Source: Brevibacillus brevis
GTDB lineage: Bacteria; Bacillota; Bacilli; Brevibacillales; Brevibacillaceae
NCBI RefSeq assembly: GCF_031583145.1
Contig: NZ_CP134050.1
Coordinates: forward strand, 2,617,501 to 2,681,500
Reading direction: 5' to 3'
Length of the DNA stretch: 64,000 nt
In this document: in pieces, positions 17,435 to 23,996 of the stretch
Layout: each line of letters starts with the position of its first letter
Position numbering within the stretch: position 1 is the first letter of the stretch
Made by a program: the position numbers and the translations under genes
The notes under the pieces: generated by a model
Database searches by the model: none
The model's input: the letters and a program-made list of their open reading frames with translations, nothing else
Told to the model about the DNA's origin: nothing

Positions 17435-18571
17435 ATGATCAAGACGATCTTGTTTGATGTGGATGGCGTCATGCTCAGTGAAGAACGTTACTTTGACGCG
17501 TCCGCACTGACTGTATGGGAGCTGCTGTACAGCCCGCAATACCTCGGGCTGAAGTCGGACGCCTTTACCCCCGCTCCGCAGGAAACCGATATTCGCCGGA
17601 TTCGCGAAGAGGTGTTCGCGAGAGACGAAGTGCTGGACTTGATCAAAGCACGGGGGATCAACTCCAACTGGGACATGGTCTACTTGACGTTTTCCTATCA
17701 TTTGATACGACTGGTTGAGGAATTGAAATCGCAAATGGGGGAGAAAGCAGCCAGCCTGCTTGGCGGGCAGATCGACCGTGAGAAGCTGGCACAGCTGCGA
17801 GTGTGGAAAGAGGCATACGCTCCAGGCTTTGCTCCCGACTACGCTGCGTTTACTCCCGATTTCGCGAAGGGTACTGCGCAAAAGGCGGAGATGCTGCTTT
17901 ATCTCAATCAAATTGCCAAGGAGCGCTGCGGTATCGAGACGGACACGTTCTCGCGCAACAGCGTGCTGTGGGAGCTTTGTCAGGAGACGTTTCAGGAATG
18001 GTACCTCGGCGATGAGCGGGTCGCCGCTTCCATCGGCAGAGACACGATGCAGCCCGGCAAGAAAGGCTTTCTGGCCGATGAAATTCCGATCGTTCCGCCA
18101 GCTGAGCTGATCGAGCTGCTTCGCACATTGAAAGAGAAGGGGTATACGCTCGGGATTGGCACCGGACGGCCGACGATCGAGACACACGTCCCTTTGAATG
18201 AATTGAAGGTCCTGGAATGGTTTGACCCGGATCGTATCGTGACGGCGTCCCACGTATTGCAGGCCGAAGAGGAATATCCGGAGCATGCTCCCTTGTCCAA
18301 GCCGCATCCTTTTTCCTATGTAAAAGGGATGCTGGGATTATCTGCCCCGAACAGCGGTGTGGTGAACATTCCTCTCCCGATCGCCAATGGGGAGGAAGTG
18401 TTGATCGTCGGAGACTCTATGGCGGATTTCCTCGCGGCACGTTCCATCGGCTGCCAATTTGCGGCTACGCTCACCGGCCTGTCTGGTCAGGAGGCGCGGT
18501 CCAAGTTTGAGGAAGTCAAAGCCGACTACATCCTCGACGATGTACGCGGTCTCCTGTCCATTCTGAAATAG
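17435..18571 (+). CDS. HAD-superfamily hydrolase, large form
   Basis: A 378-residue protein with all four HAD motifs: DVDGV (residues 8-12) with the nucleophile aspartate; IGTGRP for motif II; the lysine of SKPHPFSY for motif III; and VGDSMADF for motif IV. The roughly 200-residue stretch between motifs I and II is mostly helical and longer than in phosphoglycolate phosphatase, so this is a C1-capped phosphatase of unknown substrate. It begins 14 bases after resE and may be read with it. B. subtilis has sigX after resE, so this gene is a local difference. Confidence 0.8.
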   Translation: MIKTILFDVDGVMLSEERYFDASALTVWELLYSPQYLGLKSDAFTPAPQETDIRRIREEVFARDEVLDLIKARGINSNWDMVYLTFSYHLIRLVEELKSQMGEKAASLLGGQIDREKLAQLRVWKEAYAPGFAPDYAAFTPDFAKGTAQKAEMLLYLNQIAKERCGIETDTFSRNSVLWELCQETFQEWYLGDERVAASIGRDTMQPGKKGFLADEIPIVPPAELIELLRTLKEKGYTLGIGTGRPTIETHVPLNELKVLEWFDPDRIVTASHVLQAEEEYPEHAPLSKPHPFSYVKGMLGLSAPNSGVVNIPLPIANGEEVLIVGDSMADFLAARSIGCQFAATLTGLSGQEARSKFEEVKADYILDDVRGLLSILK

Positions 18572-20344: not shown

Positions 20345-21928
20345 TTACAGCTCGATTTGTGTCACGCTTTTGACTTCGGCCAGTTCACCCATGGTATCCA
20401 GCAGCTCAGCAGTGAGCGGCTTGTCTACGGACAGCATCATGATCGCGTCTCCGCCGACGTCGCGACGACCGACCTGCATGGTAGCGATGTTGACGCTGTT
20501 TTCGCCGAGAATGGAACCGACTCGTCCGATTACACCCGGACGGTCATTGTGGTGAATGTAGAGCAGATAGCCTTCCGGAGCGACGTCGATCGCATAGTCG
20601 TCGATTTTCACGATCCGGGCGCCGTATCCGTTCAGGCGGGTACCTGCTACGGTACGCGTTTCCTGCGTCGTTTTCAGGGAAACCGTCAGCAAGTTCGTAA
20701 AGCCCTTGTTCTGAGCGGCTTTCTGTTCCGTTACTGTGATGTCGCGAACCTTGGCCAGAAGCGGCGCATTCACGAAATTCACTTCTTCACCCAGGCGGAA
20801 AGACAGCACTCCTTTCAGCACAGTGCGCGTCAGCGGCGACGTATCGACATCGGTCAGTTCGCCGCTGTATTTGATCTCCACTTCCGAAATGGAGCCGACA
20901 GTCACCTGTGCGAGGAAGTGCCCCAATTTTTCGCCGAGAGTGAAGTACGGCTGCACTTTTTCCATGACGTGCGCCGGGATCGAAGGCAAGTTCACTGCAT
21001 TTTTGAACGGCTCTCCACGCAGCACCTTGAGAATCTCCTCGGATACATCTACGGCCACATTTTCTTGGGCTTCGATGGTGGAAGCACCCAAGTGAGGGGT
21101 CGTGACGACTTTCGGATGACCGACCAGCGGGTTGTCTACAGGCGGTTCTTCTTCGTAGACATCCAATGCGGCTCCGGCTACTTTTCCGGTCGTCAGCGCT
21201 TCGTACAACGCTTTTTCATCGATGATCCCGCCGCGAGCGCAGTTGATGAGGCGCACGCCATCCTTCATCTTCGCGAATTCGCGGGAGCTGATAATGTGGC
21301 GGGTTTCTTTCGTGAGCGGAGTGTGCACGGTGATGAAGTCGGCATTTCGGCAAATCTCGTCGACCGTTGCGTGGATGACGCCCATTTTTTGCGCGCGCTC
21401 CTCTGTCAGGAATGGATCGTAGCCCATGACGGTCATACCAAACGCTTTCGCGCGTTTTGCTACCTCGGAGCCGATCCGTCCCATTCCGATGACGCCGAGC
21501 ACTTTGTTGTTCAGCTCGACACCTTGAAAGCTTTTGCGGTCCCAAGTGCCGTCCACCAGTTTCTTGTGAGCCTGCGGAATGTTGCGGGCGACTGCCATCA
21601 GCATCGCAAAGGAGTGCTCTGCAGTAGAAATCGTATTTCCGTCAGGGGCATTGATGACCGGAATACCGGCCTGGGTAGCGGCGTTCACATCGATGTTGTC
21701 GACACCCACACCGGCACGGCCTACGGCTTTCAGCTTTTTGCCTGCCGCGAACACTTCTGCTGTCACTTGCGTCTGGCTGCGGACGAGCAGGGCATCGTAG
21801 TCTCCGATAACAGCGAGCAGATCGCTAGGGGAGAGGTTGGTTTGACGAACGACTTCGACGTCGGGAGCGTCCAGCAGCTGTTGAATACCAAATTCGCTAA
21901 GTGGGTCCGTAATCAGTACTTTATACAT
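20345..21928 (-). CDS. serA: D-3-phosphoglycerate dehydrogenase
   Basis: A 527-residue long-type SerA that oxidises 3-phosphoglycerate to 3-phosphohydroxypyruvate, the first step of serine synthesis. It has the NAD fold GMGRIGSEVAKRAKAFGM, catalytic arginine in NCARGGIIDE, catalytic histidine in TTPHLGAST, an intervening allosteric-substrate-binding domain, and a C-terminal ACT domain (DRPGVIGRVGSILGENSVNI) that usually binds serine for feedback. The ATG at 21928 lies inside the end of the upstream aminotransferase gene (8-base overlap) after AGGAGGTG, so the two are translated together. A serine T-box precedes the pair. Confidence 0.96.
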   Translation of the reverse strand: MYKVLITDPLSEFGIQQLLDAPDVEVVRQTNLSPSDLLAVIGDYDALLVRSQTQVTAEVFAAGKKLKAVGRAGVGVDNIDVNAATQAGIPVINAPDGNTISTAEHSFAMLMAVARNIPQAHKKLVDGTWDRKSFQGVELNNKVLGVIGMGRIGSEVAKRAKAFGMTVMGYDPFLTEERAQKMGVIHATVDEICRNADFITVHTPLTKETRHIISSREFAKMKDGVRLINCARGGIIDEKALYEALTTGKVAGAALDVYEEEPPVDNPLVGHPKVVTTPHLGASTIEAQENVAVDVSEEILKVLRGEPFKNAVNLPSIPAHVMEKVQPYFTLGEKLGHFLAQVTVGSISEVEIKYSGELTDVDTSPLTRTVLKGVLSFRLGEEVNFVNAPLLAKVRDITVTEQKAAQNKGFTNLLTVSLKTTQETRTVAGTRLNGYGARIVKIDDYAIDVAPEGYLLYIHHNDRPGVIGRVGSILGENSVNIATMQVGRRDVGGDAIMMLSVDKPLTAELLDTMGELAEVKSVTQIEL

Positions 21929-23075
21929 GTGCGATGAGCACCTCCTGAGCAGCTTTTACGCCGGCGCCCAGTTCGACAGGGGCACCGATTTTGTGGAGCG
22001 ACATTTCAAGGGCAGCGATGACTTGCAGGACGTCGAGCGGTTCGCAGTAGCCCATGTGGCCGATACGGAAAATCTTTCCTTTCAGATGCTGCTGTCCGCC
22101 TGCGATGGTGATGTTGTAATGCTTGGTCAGAGCCTTGCGCATCGCTTCGGCATCAAAAGCGCCTTGCGGGTCGCAGGAAGTGACGGTCGTCGCTGCGTAG
22201 GCGTCTTCGGCCATCAGCTTGATTCCCAGTGCCCGCATCGCCGCGCGGGTCATATCGCGCATGAGCTCGTGGCGTTTGACGATGGCAGGCAAGCTCTCCT
22301 CTTCCATCATGTCGAGCACTTCCGCGAGGCCGAAGATCAAGGATACAGCAGGCGTATACGGTGTGGTTTGATCAGCCAGGCTCTTACGGTACGCTTTCAG
22401 ATCCAGGTAAAACGCGAGCGACTTGTTCTTTTCGATGACGGACCAGGCGCGTTCGCTGGCTGCCAGGAAGGCGAGGCCGGTAGGGAGCATAAACGCTTTC
22501 TGAGAGCCTGTCACCACGATGTCGACACCCCAGGCGTCCATTTCGCAAGGGACAGCGCCCAGGCAGCTCACTGCGTCTACGATGAACAGAGCGTCCGTCT
22601 TTTTGCGGATGACCTGTGCCAGCTCGGCGATCGGGTTTTGCACCCCGGTAGAAGTTTCACAGTAGGTAGCAAAGACGGCCTTCACTTGCGGCTTTTCATT
22701 CAGGAACGAGTCCAGAAGCTCCGGAGTGACTGCCGTGCCCCAAGGAACCTCAAGGCGGTGAGCAACAATGCCGTAGCGCTCGCAAATTTTGGCGAAGCGT
22801 TCGCCGAAGTTGCCGCTGACCAGAATTGCCGCTTCATCTCCTGGCTGGAGGGTGTTGACTACACCCATTTCCAATGCGCTTGTTCCGCTTCCCGCGATGA
22901 TGTAGACATCTTGCTTGGTTCCGAAATACGGCTTGAGGCGCTCAGCTGTACGTGCGAACAGAGCGGAGAACTTGCCGCTGCGATGACCGATCATCGGCTG
23001 GTTCATGGCGCTTTGCACGCGCGGCGGGATCGGGGTAGGACCCGGGATTCTCAAAATCAATTTGTCAGTAAACAT
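21921..23075 (-). CDS. Class V aminotransferase, probable serine-pathway transaminase
   Basis: A 384-residue fold-type I PLP enzyme of the alanine-glyoxylate / serine-pyruvate aminotransferase group. It shows the PLP-binding aspartate in FIVDAVSCLG, the Schiff-base lysine in VTGSQKAFMLPTG, and N-terminal PGPTPIPP. The ATG at 23075 follows AAGGAGGAG; longer frames upstream would run into the T-box terminator. It forms an overlapping operon with serA under a serine-type T-box. This makes a role as the phosphohydroxypyruvate (or hydroxypyruvate) transaminase plausible in place of a classical SerC; that role is inferred, since the fold alone also fits glyoxylate or ureidoglycine transamination. 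Confidence 0.85.
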   Translation of the reverse strand: MFTDKLILRIPGPTPIPPRVQSAMNQPMIGHRSGKFSALFARTAERLKPYFGTKQDVYIIAGSGTSALEMGVVNTLQPGDEAAILVSGNFGERFAKICERYGIVAHRLEVPWGTAVTPELLDSFLNEKPQVKAVFATYCETSTGVQNPIAELAQVIRKKTDALFIVDAVSCLGAVPCEMDAWGVDIVVTGSQKAFMLPTGLAFLAASERAWSVIEKNKSLAFYLDLKAYRKSLADQTTPYTPAVSLIFGLAEVLDMMEEESLPAIVKRHELMRDMTRAAMRALGIKLMAEDAYAATTVTSCDPQGAFDAEAMRKALTKHYNITIAGGQQHLKGKIFRIGHMGYCEPLDVLQVIAALEMSLHKIGAPVELGAGVKAAQEVLIAHV

Positions 23076-23103
23076 GCTCTCTCTCCTCCTTGAATACAAG
23101 CAA

Positions 23104-23395
23104 AATAAAAAACCTCCCGTTCTCACACTGCTCCTATCACAGAACAGTGAGGGACGAGAGGCTTTGCTTCGCGGTGCCACCCTCATTTACCCTTCTTTTC
23201 TCAAAGAAGAGCCTTAGCAGGTACATGACCTAAAGAGATAACGGATCTACCGTTCGCGTCTACAGGAGGTGGGCCTCGTTCGACGCAACAGCTCGAAAGT
23301 GCTTATCTGTGATTGGAACCGCCGATTCGCAGCAACCATCGGCTCTCTGAGGGTTTCCAGGGCACAGCGTTTCTTCGTCATCGCTGTTTTGCATT
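23104..23395 (-). promoter_or_regulatory. T-box riboswitch, serine (AGC) specifier
   Basis: Read on the minus strand. Stem I is closed by AACAGC (23388-23383) with GCTGTT (23292-23287), then CTGTG (23367-23363) with CACAG (23311-23307). The internal loop between these stems contains AGC at 23303-23301 in the specifier position, followed by A. The distal part has the AGAGAG element and a CCGAT/ATCGG hairpin. The T-box sequence AGGGTGGCACCGCG lies at 23183-23170. A long terminator stem follows at 23161-23105, ending in a T run just before the aminotransferase start. Uncharged tRNA-Ser should bind and allow read-through. Confidence 0.9.
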
Positions 23396-23419
23396 ATGTG
23401 TTCGTAAGATTTGTACTTA

Positions 23420-23448
23420 CGATAACACGGCAAAAAGGGGAGCGTCAA
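23420..23448 (-). promoter_or_regulatory. Possible promoter of the T-box operon
   Basis: On the minus strand TTGACG (23448-23443) is followed by TGTTAT at 15 bases (23427-23422) or TTATCG at 17 bases. It is about 30 bases before stem I of the T-box. Confidence 0.5.

Positions 23449-23753: not shown

Positions 23754-23996
<243 letters not shown>

Follow-up and report, generated by a model that had tools for sequence, protein, structure and literature searches.

The stretch analysed here, called the window, comprises 64,000 nucleotides of Brevibacillus brevis (contig NZ_CP134050.1, positions 2,617,501 to 2,681,500 of the forward strand). It carries a class V pyridoxal phosphate (PLP)-dependent aminotransferase gene and serA behind a serine T-box. 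The aminotransferase is predicted to take the place of the canonical phosphoserine aminotransferase SerC. The features of the locus, with positions in the window, are:

20345-21928, minus strand: serA, D-3-phosphoglycerate dehydrogenase with ACT domain, 527 amino acids (NCBIfam TIGR01327, Pfam)
21921-23075, minus strand: class V PLP-dependent aminotransferase, 384 amino acids, predicted phosphoserine aminotransferase of the SerC3 type (Pfam PF00266, PDB homologues, alignments)
23107-23161, minus strand: intrinsic terminator (stem 23161-23113) with U tract (fold, consensus structure)
23147-23390, minus strand: T-box leader RNA (Rfam RF00230, covariation in 27 leaders)
23170-23183, minus strand: T-box sequence AGGGUGGCACCGCG, with UGGC as reverse complement to the terminal GCCA of tRNA-Ser(GCU)
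23301-23303, minus strand: specifier codon AGC (serine) (Rfam alignment; 27 of 27 family leaders)

Gene pair and T-box leader

A putative SerC3 enzyme was recognised by class V membership, an operon with serA and a missing canonical serC. At the locus the last base of the aminotransferase reading frame is 21921 and the first base of serA is 21928; the two genes share the eight bases 21921-21928. An operon of this kind had been proposed in an earlier sequence-only reading of the DNA and is borne out by the coordinates. SerA reached 728.4 bits against TIGR01327 in the NCBIfam search (cut-off 454). With 96.7 bits against PF00266 (cut-off 21.5) the aminotransferase belongs to class V. Its start codon (23075-23073) lies downstream of the Shine-Dalgarno sequence AAGGAGG, which begins at 23091, and gives a protein of 384 amino acids. 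A longer form from 23186, taken from the mechanical list of open reading frames (ORFs), was set aside; its start falls inside the leader.

The leader scored 101.9 bits against RF00230 (gathering score 93, E 2.5e-21), and none of 200 dinucleotide shuffles folded as well (z -3.40). A simple terminator scan did not list the terminator at 23107-23161. For the alignment, the window was combined with 22 of the 29 fetched serC3 leaders and four serA leaders, giving 27 rows (L013, L015, L016, L018, L019, L023 and L025 were left out; L and G numbers denote loci and genomes). At least one two-sided, pair-keeping change was found in 25 of the 69 predicted consensus pairs. The specifier AGC was invariant in all 27 leaders and the preceding base varied (A in 18, G in 9). 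Together with the Rfam score, this confirms the serine codon AGC of the sequence-only reading, which stands at 23303-23301. At the other end of the leader, the bulge is complementary to the end of tRNA-Ser(GCU), whose gene occurs in two identical copies among the genome stretches fetched. The inspected serine tRNAs with the anticodons CGA, GGA and UGA likewise have G before CCA. Hence, the match of UGGC with GCCA fits serine and does not single out GCU.

T-boxes at gathering score were detected in 18 of 20 family leaders of one set and in all nine of L029-L037; L015 and L016 scored lower, yet have the core motif. Of the 35 family loci with the enzyme, the scan covered all but the five of G026, G028, G029, G030 and G032. 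Among leaders from outside the family, 10 of 16 sources showed a T-box at gathering score. L102, L117, L122, L137, L158 and L174 did not and contain the core motif. In the 10 leaders with a T-box the specifier, read by eye, was AGC in eight and UCC in two; for L098 and L112 the program placed gaps in the specifier loop, and the codon was read from its place next to the stem. As both codons stand for serine, the specifier codon changes and the amino acid does not. A pattern scan found no T-box core within 700 bases upstream of the serC3-serA loci L109, L119, L127, L128, L143, L146, L147 (Oceanobacillus), L154, L160, L161 (Halobacillus), L126, L138 and L156 (Paucisalibacillus). Either these loci are regulated otherwise or the pattern missed the motif.

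Two leaders differ in their core motifs. L118 (Sporosarcina cyprini) has two successive ones, 366 and 101 bases before the enzyme match, which are perhaps tandem T-boxes. In L122 (Tumebacillus avium) the core GGGTGGAACC lies 187 bases before the enzyme match and has A at the position at which a tRNA-Ser with G before CCA would require C or U for pairing.

A comparable system is described for the serA T-box of Paenibacillus polymyxa, for which AGC is reported as the specifier proven by mutation (PMC8002221). Both leaders are serine T-boxes before a serine-synthesis gene, with AGC and with transcription attenuation, which is predicted for the window. In contrast, the leader of P. polymyxa controls serA, with serC located elsewhere, and contains UGGU instead of the UGGC of the window.

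Exchange with canonical SerC

The genome of the strain (6.23 Mb, 3 contigs) was searched with the SerC model TIGR01364. No canonical serC was found: the three matches scored 37.9, 35 and 28.6 bits where 443.6 are required, and the last of them is the class V enzyme itself. The two better-scoring class V genes were rejected as real SerC; both pass the PhnW cut-off (587.6 and 600.9 vs 400.8 bits). Such a whole-genome search had been named as a check in the sequence-only reading, which held that the enzyme may take the place of SerC. The result favours replacement, as does the exchange in relatives described below. With the class V enzyme as query, five matches were obtained in the genome, namely the enzyme, the two PhnW and two short matches of low score (26.4 and 22 bits). 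The PhnW genes (L076 4078-5208 and L077 5217-6335, both on the minus strand) are adjoined by ABC transporter-like ORFs, judged by eye, which perhaps serve 2-aminoethylphosphonate.

Among 39 genomes of the family, SerA was over the cut-off in all. In 35 of them the class V enzyme was present at full length and 71-100% identity, its coordinates placing it immediately upstream of serA; canonical SerC was over the cut-off in five. The four genomes without the class V enzyme (G014, G015, G016 and G035) all have canonical SerC, one genome (G008) has both and none has neither. This exclusion corresponds to a Fisher p of 6.1e-5; since the genomes share ancestry, p values are descriptive only. Around canonical serC no T-box at gathering score was detected in G008, G014, G015 and G016. 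In G008 the two serC types lie on contigs C2 and C25, and the surroundings of canonical serC have 45% GC compared with 49% at the serA locus. G008 looks like an in-between stage with both genes, though its canonical SerC may instead be assembly contamination.

The searches of the own genome used the SerC model and the class V enzyme, and other aminotransferase classes were outside their reach. Aminotransferases are often broad in specificity, and one encoded elsewhere might supply the phosphoserine activity while the class V enzyme does a side reaction. We regard this explanation as hardly credible, for it leaves unexplained that canonical SerC occurs in exactly the four family genomes without the enzyme, in two clades.

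These clades were seen in a gene tree of SerA that covered 31 of the 39 genomes. The enzyme-bearing G034 is the sister of G035, and G014-G016 form a separate clade inside the genus of the window, both on starred branches. SerA shares 92% identity between G035 and G034 and 93% between G016 and the window. Comparison of the window with six loci (G008, G014, G015, G016, G034 and G035) showed a mostly conserved order of the neighbouring genes.

In the four enzyme-less genomes the T-box stands ahead of serA with no aminotransferase in between. In G014, G015 and G016 the 3' end of the enzyme gene is still there: 27 bases, or nine codons including the stop, of which eight overlap serA and 19 precede the serA ATG. 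In BLAST, 25 of these bases were 96, 96 and 100% identical to the window. Between this remnant and the T run of the terminator lie 274, 176 and 176 bases, for which no match (E up to 1) was obtained to the window gene or to the loci of nine relatives. In G035 the other end of the gene is left. Here, 24 bases with ribosome-binding site and ATGTTT, the start of the enzyme gene in G034 and G036 (96% identity), lead into serA. The order is now T-box-serA-serC, with canonical serC within 140 bases after serA. The different break points are read as two losses. Thus, judging from the tree and the scars, it looks as if the enzyme gene was lost twice with different end points.

The association with serA was also seen in the phylum. 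In 76 of 80 named loci, 12 of which are from Brevibacillus, and in all 29 loci of a phylum sample, serA lay downstream in the same orientation; the distance between the aligned parts was at most 118 bases, except for L192 (341). The loci without serA match (L159, L162, L163 and L164) encode class V proteins with HPGPTPIPK and GGLG motifs. A census of SerC covered 50 of the 68 non-Brevibacillus loci, the completeness of the genomes not being stated. Canonical SerC was over the cut-off in one of 48 genomes with the enzyme beside serA (L153) and in both genomes with a non-adjacent enzyme (L163 and L164). In the phylum sample of 299 genomes, canonical SerC was over the cut-off in 86, and 131 had the enzyme or one of its close relatives (E of roughly 1e-80 or lower, a cut chosen after the list was seen). 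Both were present in 13 genomes with 37.7 expected, so they co-occur less than expected.

Substrate of the class V enzyme

Canonical SerC belongs to the same superfamily and catalyses the step proposed for the class V enzyme, which is far below the cut-off of its model TIGR01364 (29.2 vs 443.6 bits). BhcA, the serine-glyoxylate aminotransferases and PhnW are further members of this superfamily. A class V phosphoserine aminotransferase of methanogens is a related archaeal case. For the 2-aminoethylphosphonate transaminases, including PhnW, the enzyme also stays below the cut-offs (TIGR02326 122.1 vs 400.8 bits; TIGR03301 187.5 vs 360.8 bits), and it differs from BhcA in the same way.

We take K193 (in TGSQKA) to be the PLP lysine and R337 to be the carboxylate-binding arginine. 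Q328 forms a GGQ signature and is conserved in the window enzyme and the other 105 serA-adjacent sequences (106 aligned). It sets the enzyme apart from its five best PDB relatives, which have L, Y, F, V and L at this position (by eye), and from the two PhnW of the own genome, which have no Q. L159, L162, L163 and L164, the ones not adjacent to serA, have L. R93 was rejected as a further signature. It splits the 106 serA-adjacent sequences from the four non-adjacent ones, but is common to PhnW.

We consider it likely, with a probability of about 0.9, that the locus is a serine operon T-box(Ser)-serC3-serA in which the class V enzyme replaces canonical SerC and would act on 3-phosphohydroxypyruvate. 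In T-boxes, pairing with an uncharged tRNA stops the terminator from forming. Uncharged tRNA-Ser(GCU) would pair with AGC in stem I through its anticodon and with UGGC through its GCCA end. Then the terminator stem 23161-23113 would not form and the operon would be read. SerA would oxidise 3-phosphoglycerate to 3-phosphohydroxypyruvate, and the class V enzyme, in the role of canonical SerC and with a presumed amino donor, would transaminate this to phosphoserine. The phosphate is probably taken off by a phosphatase encoded nearby:

17435-18571, plus strand: HAD-superfamily phosphatase-like protein, 378 amino acids, convergent with serA (Pfam HAD)

All 39 family genomes encode this protein on the same contig as serA, at most 4.5 kb away and in convergent orientation, irrespective of the type of SerC; canonical SerB (TIGR00338) was over the cut-off in none of them. 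Three Siminovitchia loci (L153, L155 and L158; one of them S. fordii) have a HAD protein of 45-48% identity near serA. A HAD phosphatase SerB4 co-localised with serC3 and serA is described for Brevibacillus and Bacillus fordii (PMC9026213). By description and place, the protein of the window is probably this SerB4 and a candidate phosphoserine phosphatase.

Several observations weigh against replacement of SerC by the class V enzyme. It was over the cut-off in none of the 18 listed NCBIfam families, and the best match was the aspartate-glyoxylate aminotransferase BhcA (NF045640; 311.2 vs 650 bits). Among PDB entries a serine-glyoxylate aminotransferase matches best, and the names of the top five include no phosphoserine enzyme. 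The remnant in G014-G016 includes the likely ribosome-binding site of serA and was maybe kept for this reason. The SerA tree was rooted at the midpoint, and the enzyme gene might instead have been gained ahead of serA in the other genomes, which is less simple. Neither enzyme was found in 95 of the 299 phylum genomes. Furthermore, exclusion is not absolute, as both enzymes occur together in G008, in the 13 phylum genomes and in the genome of L153.

The best PDB match and the class V architecture would suit an aminotransferase of the serine-glyoxylate or alanine-glyoxylate type, which would form glycine or break down serine and only happen to lie in the operon. A serine T-box, however, switches genes on in serine shortage, which is a misfit with serine breakdown, and Q328 of GGQ stands against the residues of the five PDB relatives. 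This function would also give no reason for the exchange with canonical SerC or for serA as an almost constant partner, and we judge it to be very improbable.

A closer question is the phosphate group. No phosphate-binding pattern could be assigned in the PDB alignments or in the 106 serA-adjacent sequences. The residues that we take to be the phosphate ligands of E. coli SerC have no conserved counterpart in the aligned sequences. The closest solved relatives are named for unphosphorylated substrates, and the neighbouring HAD protein might take phosphoserine or 3-phosphohydroxypyruvate. These points would agree with hydroxypyruvate as substrate in a non-phosphorylated order, in which 3-phosphohydroxypyruvate loses its phosphate before transamination or SerA uses glycerate. 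SerA is, however, far over the cut-off for phosphoglycerate dehydrogenase. Canonical SerC, an enzyme for the phosphorylated substrate, is combined in G035 and G014-G016 with a T-box of this kind, the HAD neighbour and a SerA of 92-93% identity to G034 or the window. Provided that the SerA product is the substrate of canonical SerC in G035 and G016, the class V enzyme most likely takes this product, 3-phosphohydroxypyruvate, in G034 and the window. Hydroxypyruvate as the substrate is thus considered improbable.

Upstream of the operon a further site was found by a consensus scan:

23419-23448, minus strand: promoter-like site TTGACG-18-TATCGT with TG ahead of the second hexamer (9 of 12 matches)

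The site is a weak promoter candidate, as a match alone is no proof of function. At 23757-23960 of the window (minus strand), also upstream of the operon, a ferredoxin-like protein of 68 residues (CIACGACGA) was noticed by eye; no relation was seen.

Published SerC3 prediction and significance

SerC3 was predicted as a phosphoserine aminotransferase from gene context in 2022, with Brevibacillus named (PMC9026213). The sequence-only reading had pointed to class V enzymes beside serA in other lineages only; the published prediction includes Brevibacillus itself. In the part of that paper available here, the table gives co-localisation and functional class only as evidence for SerC3. An operon with serA is reported for 65 of 173 genomes, and serC1 and serC2 are both missing in 120 of the 173, which makes their absence usual, not strict. 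This part of the source mentions no replacement and no assay of SerC3, and nothing in the window locus is at odds with its account. The term T-box does not occur in the text of the paper.

By description and place, the window enzyme is a candidate SerC3, for which the same source gives A5I0W7 as an example. SerC2 and SerC3 are stated there to be similar to the characterised 3-phosphoserine transaminase P74281 of Synechocystis (Klemke et al. 2015); the link of P74281 to the window enzyme runs through this description. For a haloarchaeon, a further study describes a missing serC and suggests non-orthologous replacement (PMC3402447). Papers on serine gaps in other bacteria (PMC5764234, PMC7311316, PMC3766115) hold no class V case of use in their available parts. 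Among the open-licence literature no paper was found for the combination of T-box, Brevibacillus, serine and aminotransferase, which says little of the rest.

As SerC3 in Brevibacillus is already predicted in PMC9026213, the window enzyme is a member of a predicted family and not a new kind. Beyond that paper, the serine T-box with its change of serine codon, two replacements on a tree with scars and the GGQ mark are added. The chances are about even that a distinct family of phosphoserine aminotransferases, with GGQ as its mark and serA as its partner in many Bacillota, provided the older serine enzyme in the Brevibacillus family. On this reading canonical SerC was gained on at least two occasions, coexisted with the older enzyme for a time and then displaced it, the losses leaving scars. 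If so, Q328 would be one determinant of the shift to phosphorylated substrates from those of the glyoxylate type. In genomes without canonical serC, an enzyme below every curated NCBIfam cut-off would fill a step of the serine pathway. Close relatives that differ in the replacement offer a ready comparison for the change of substrate in transaminases and for the displacement of one enzyme by another.

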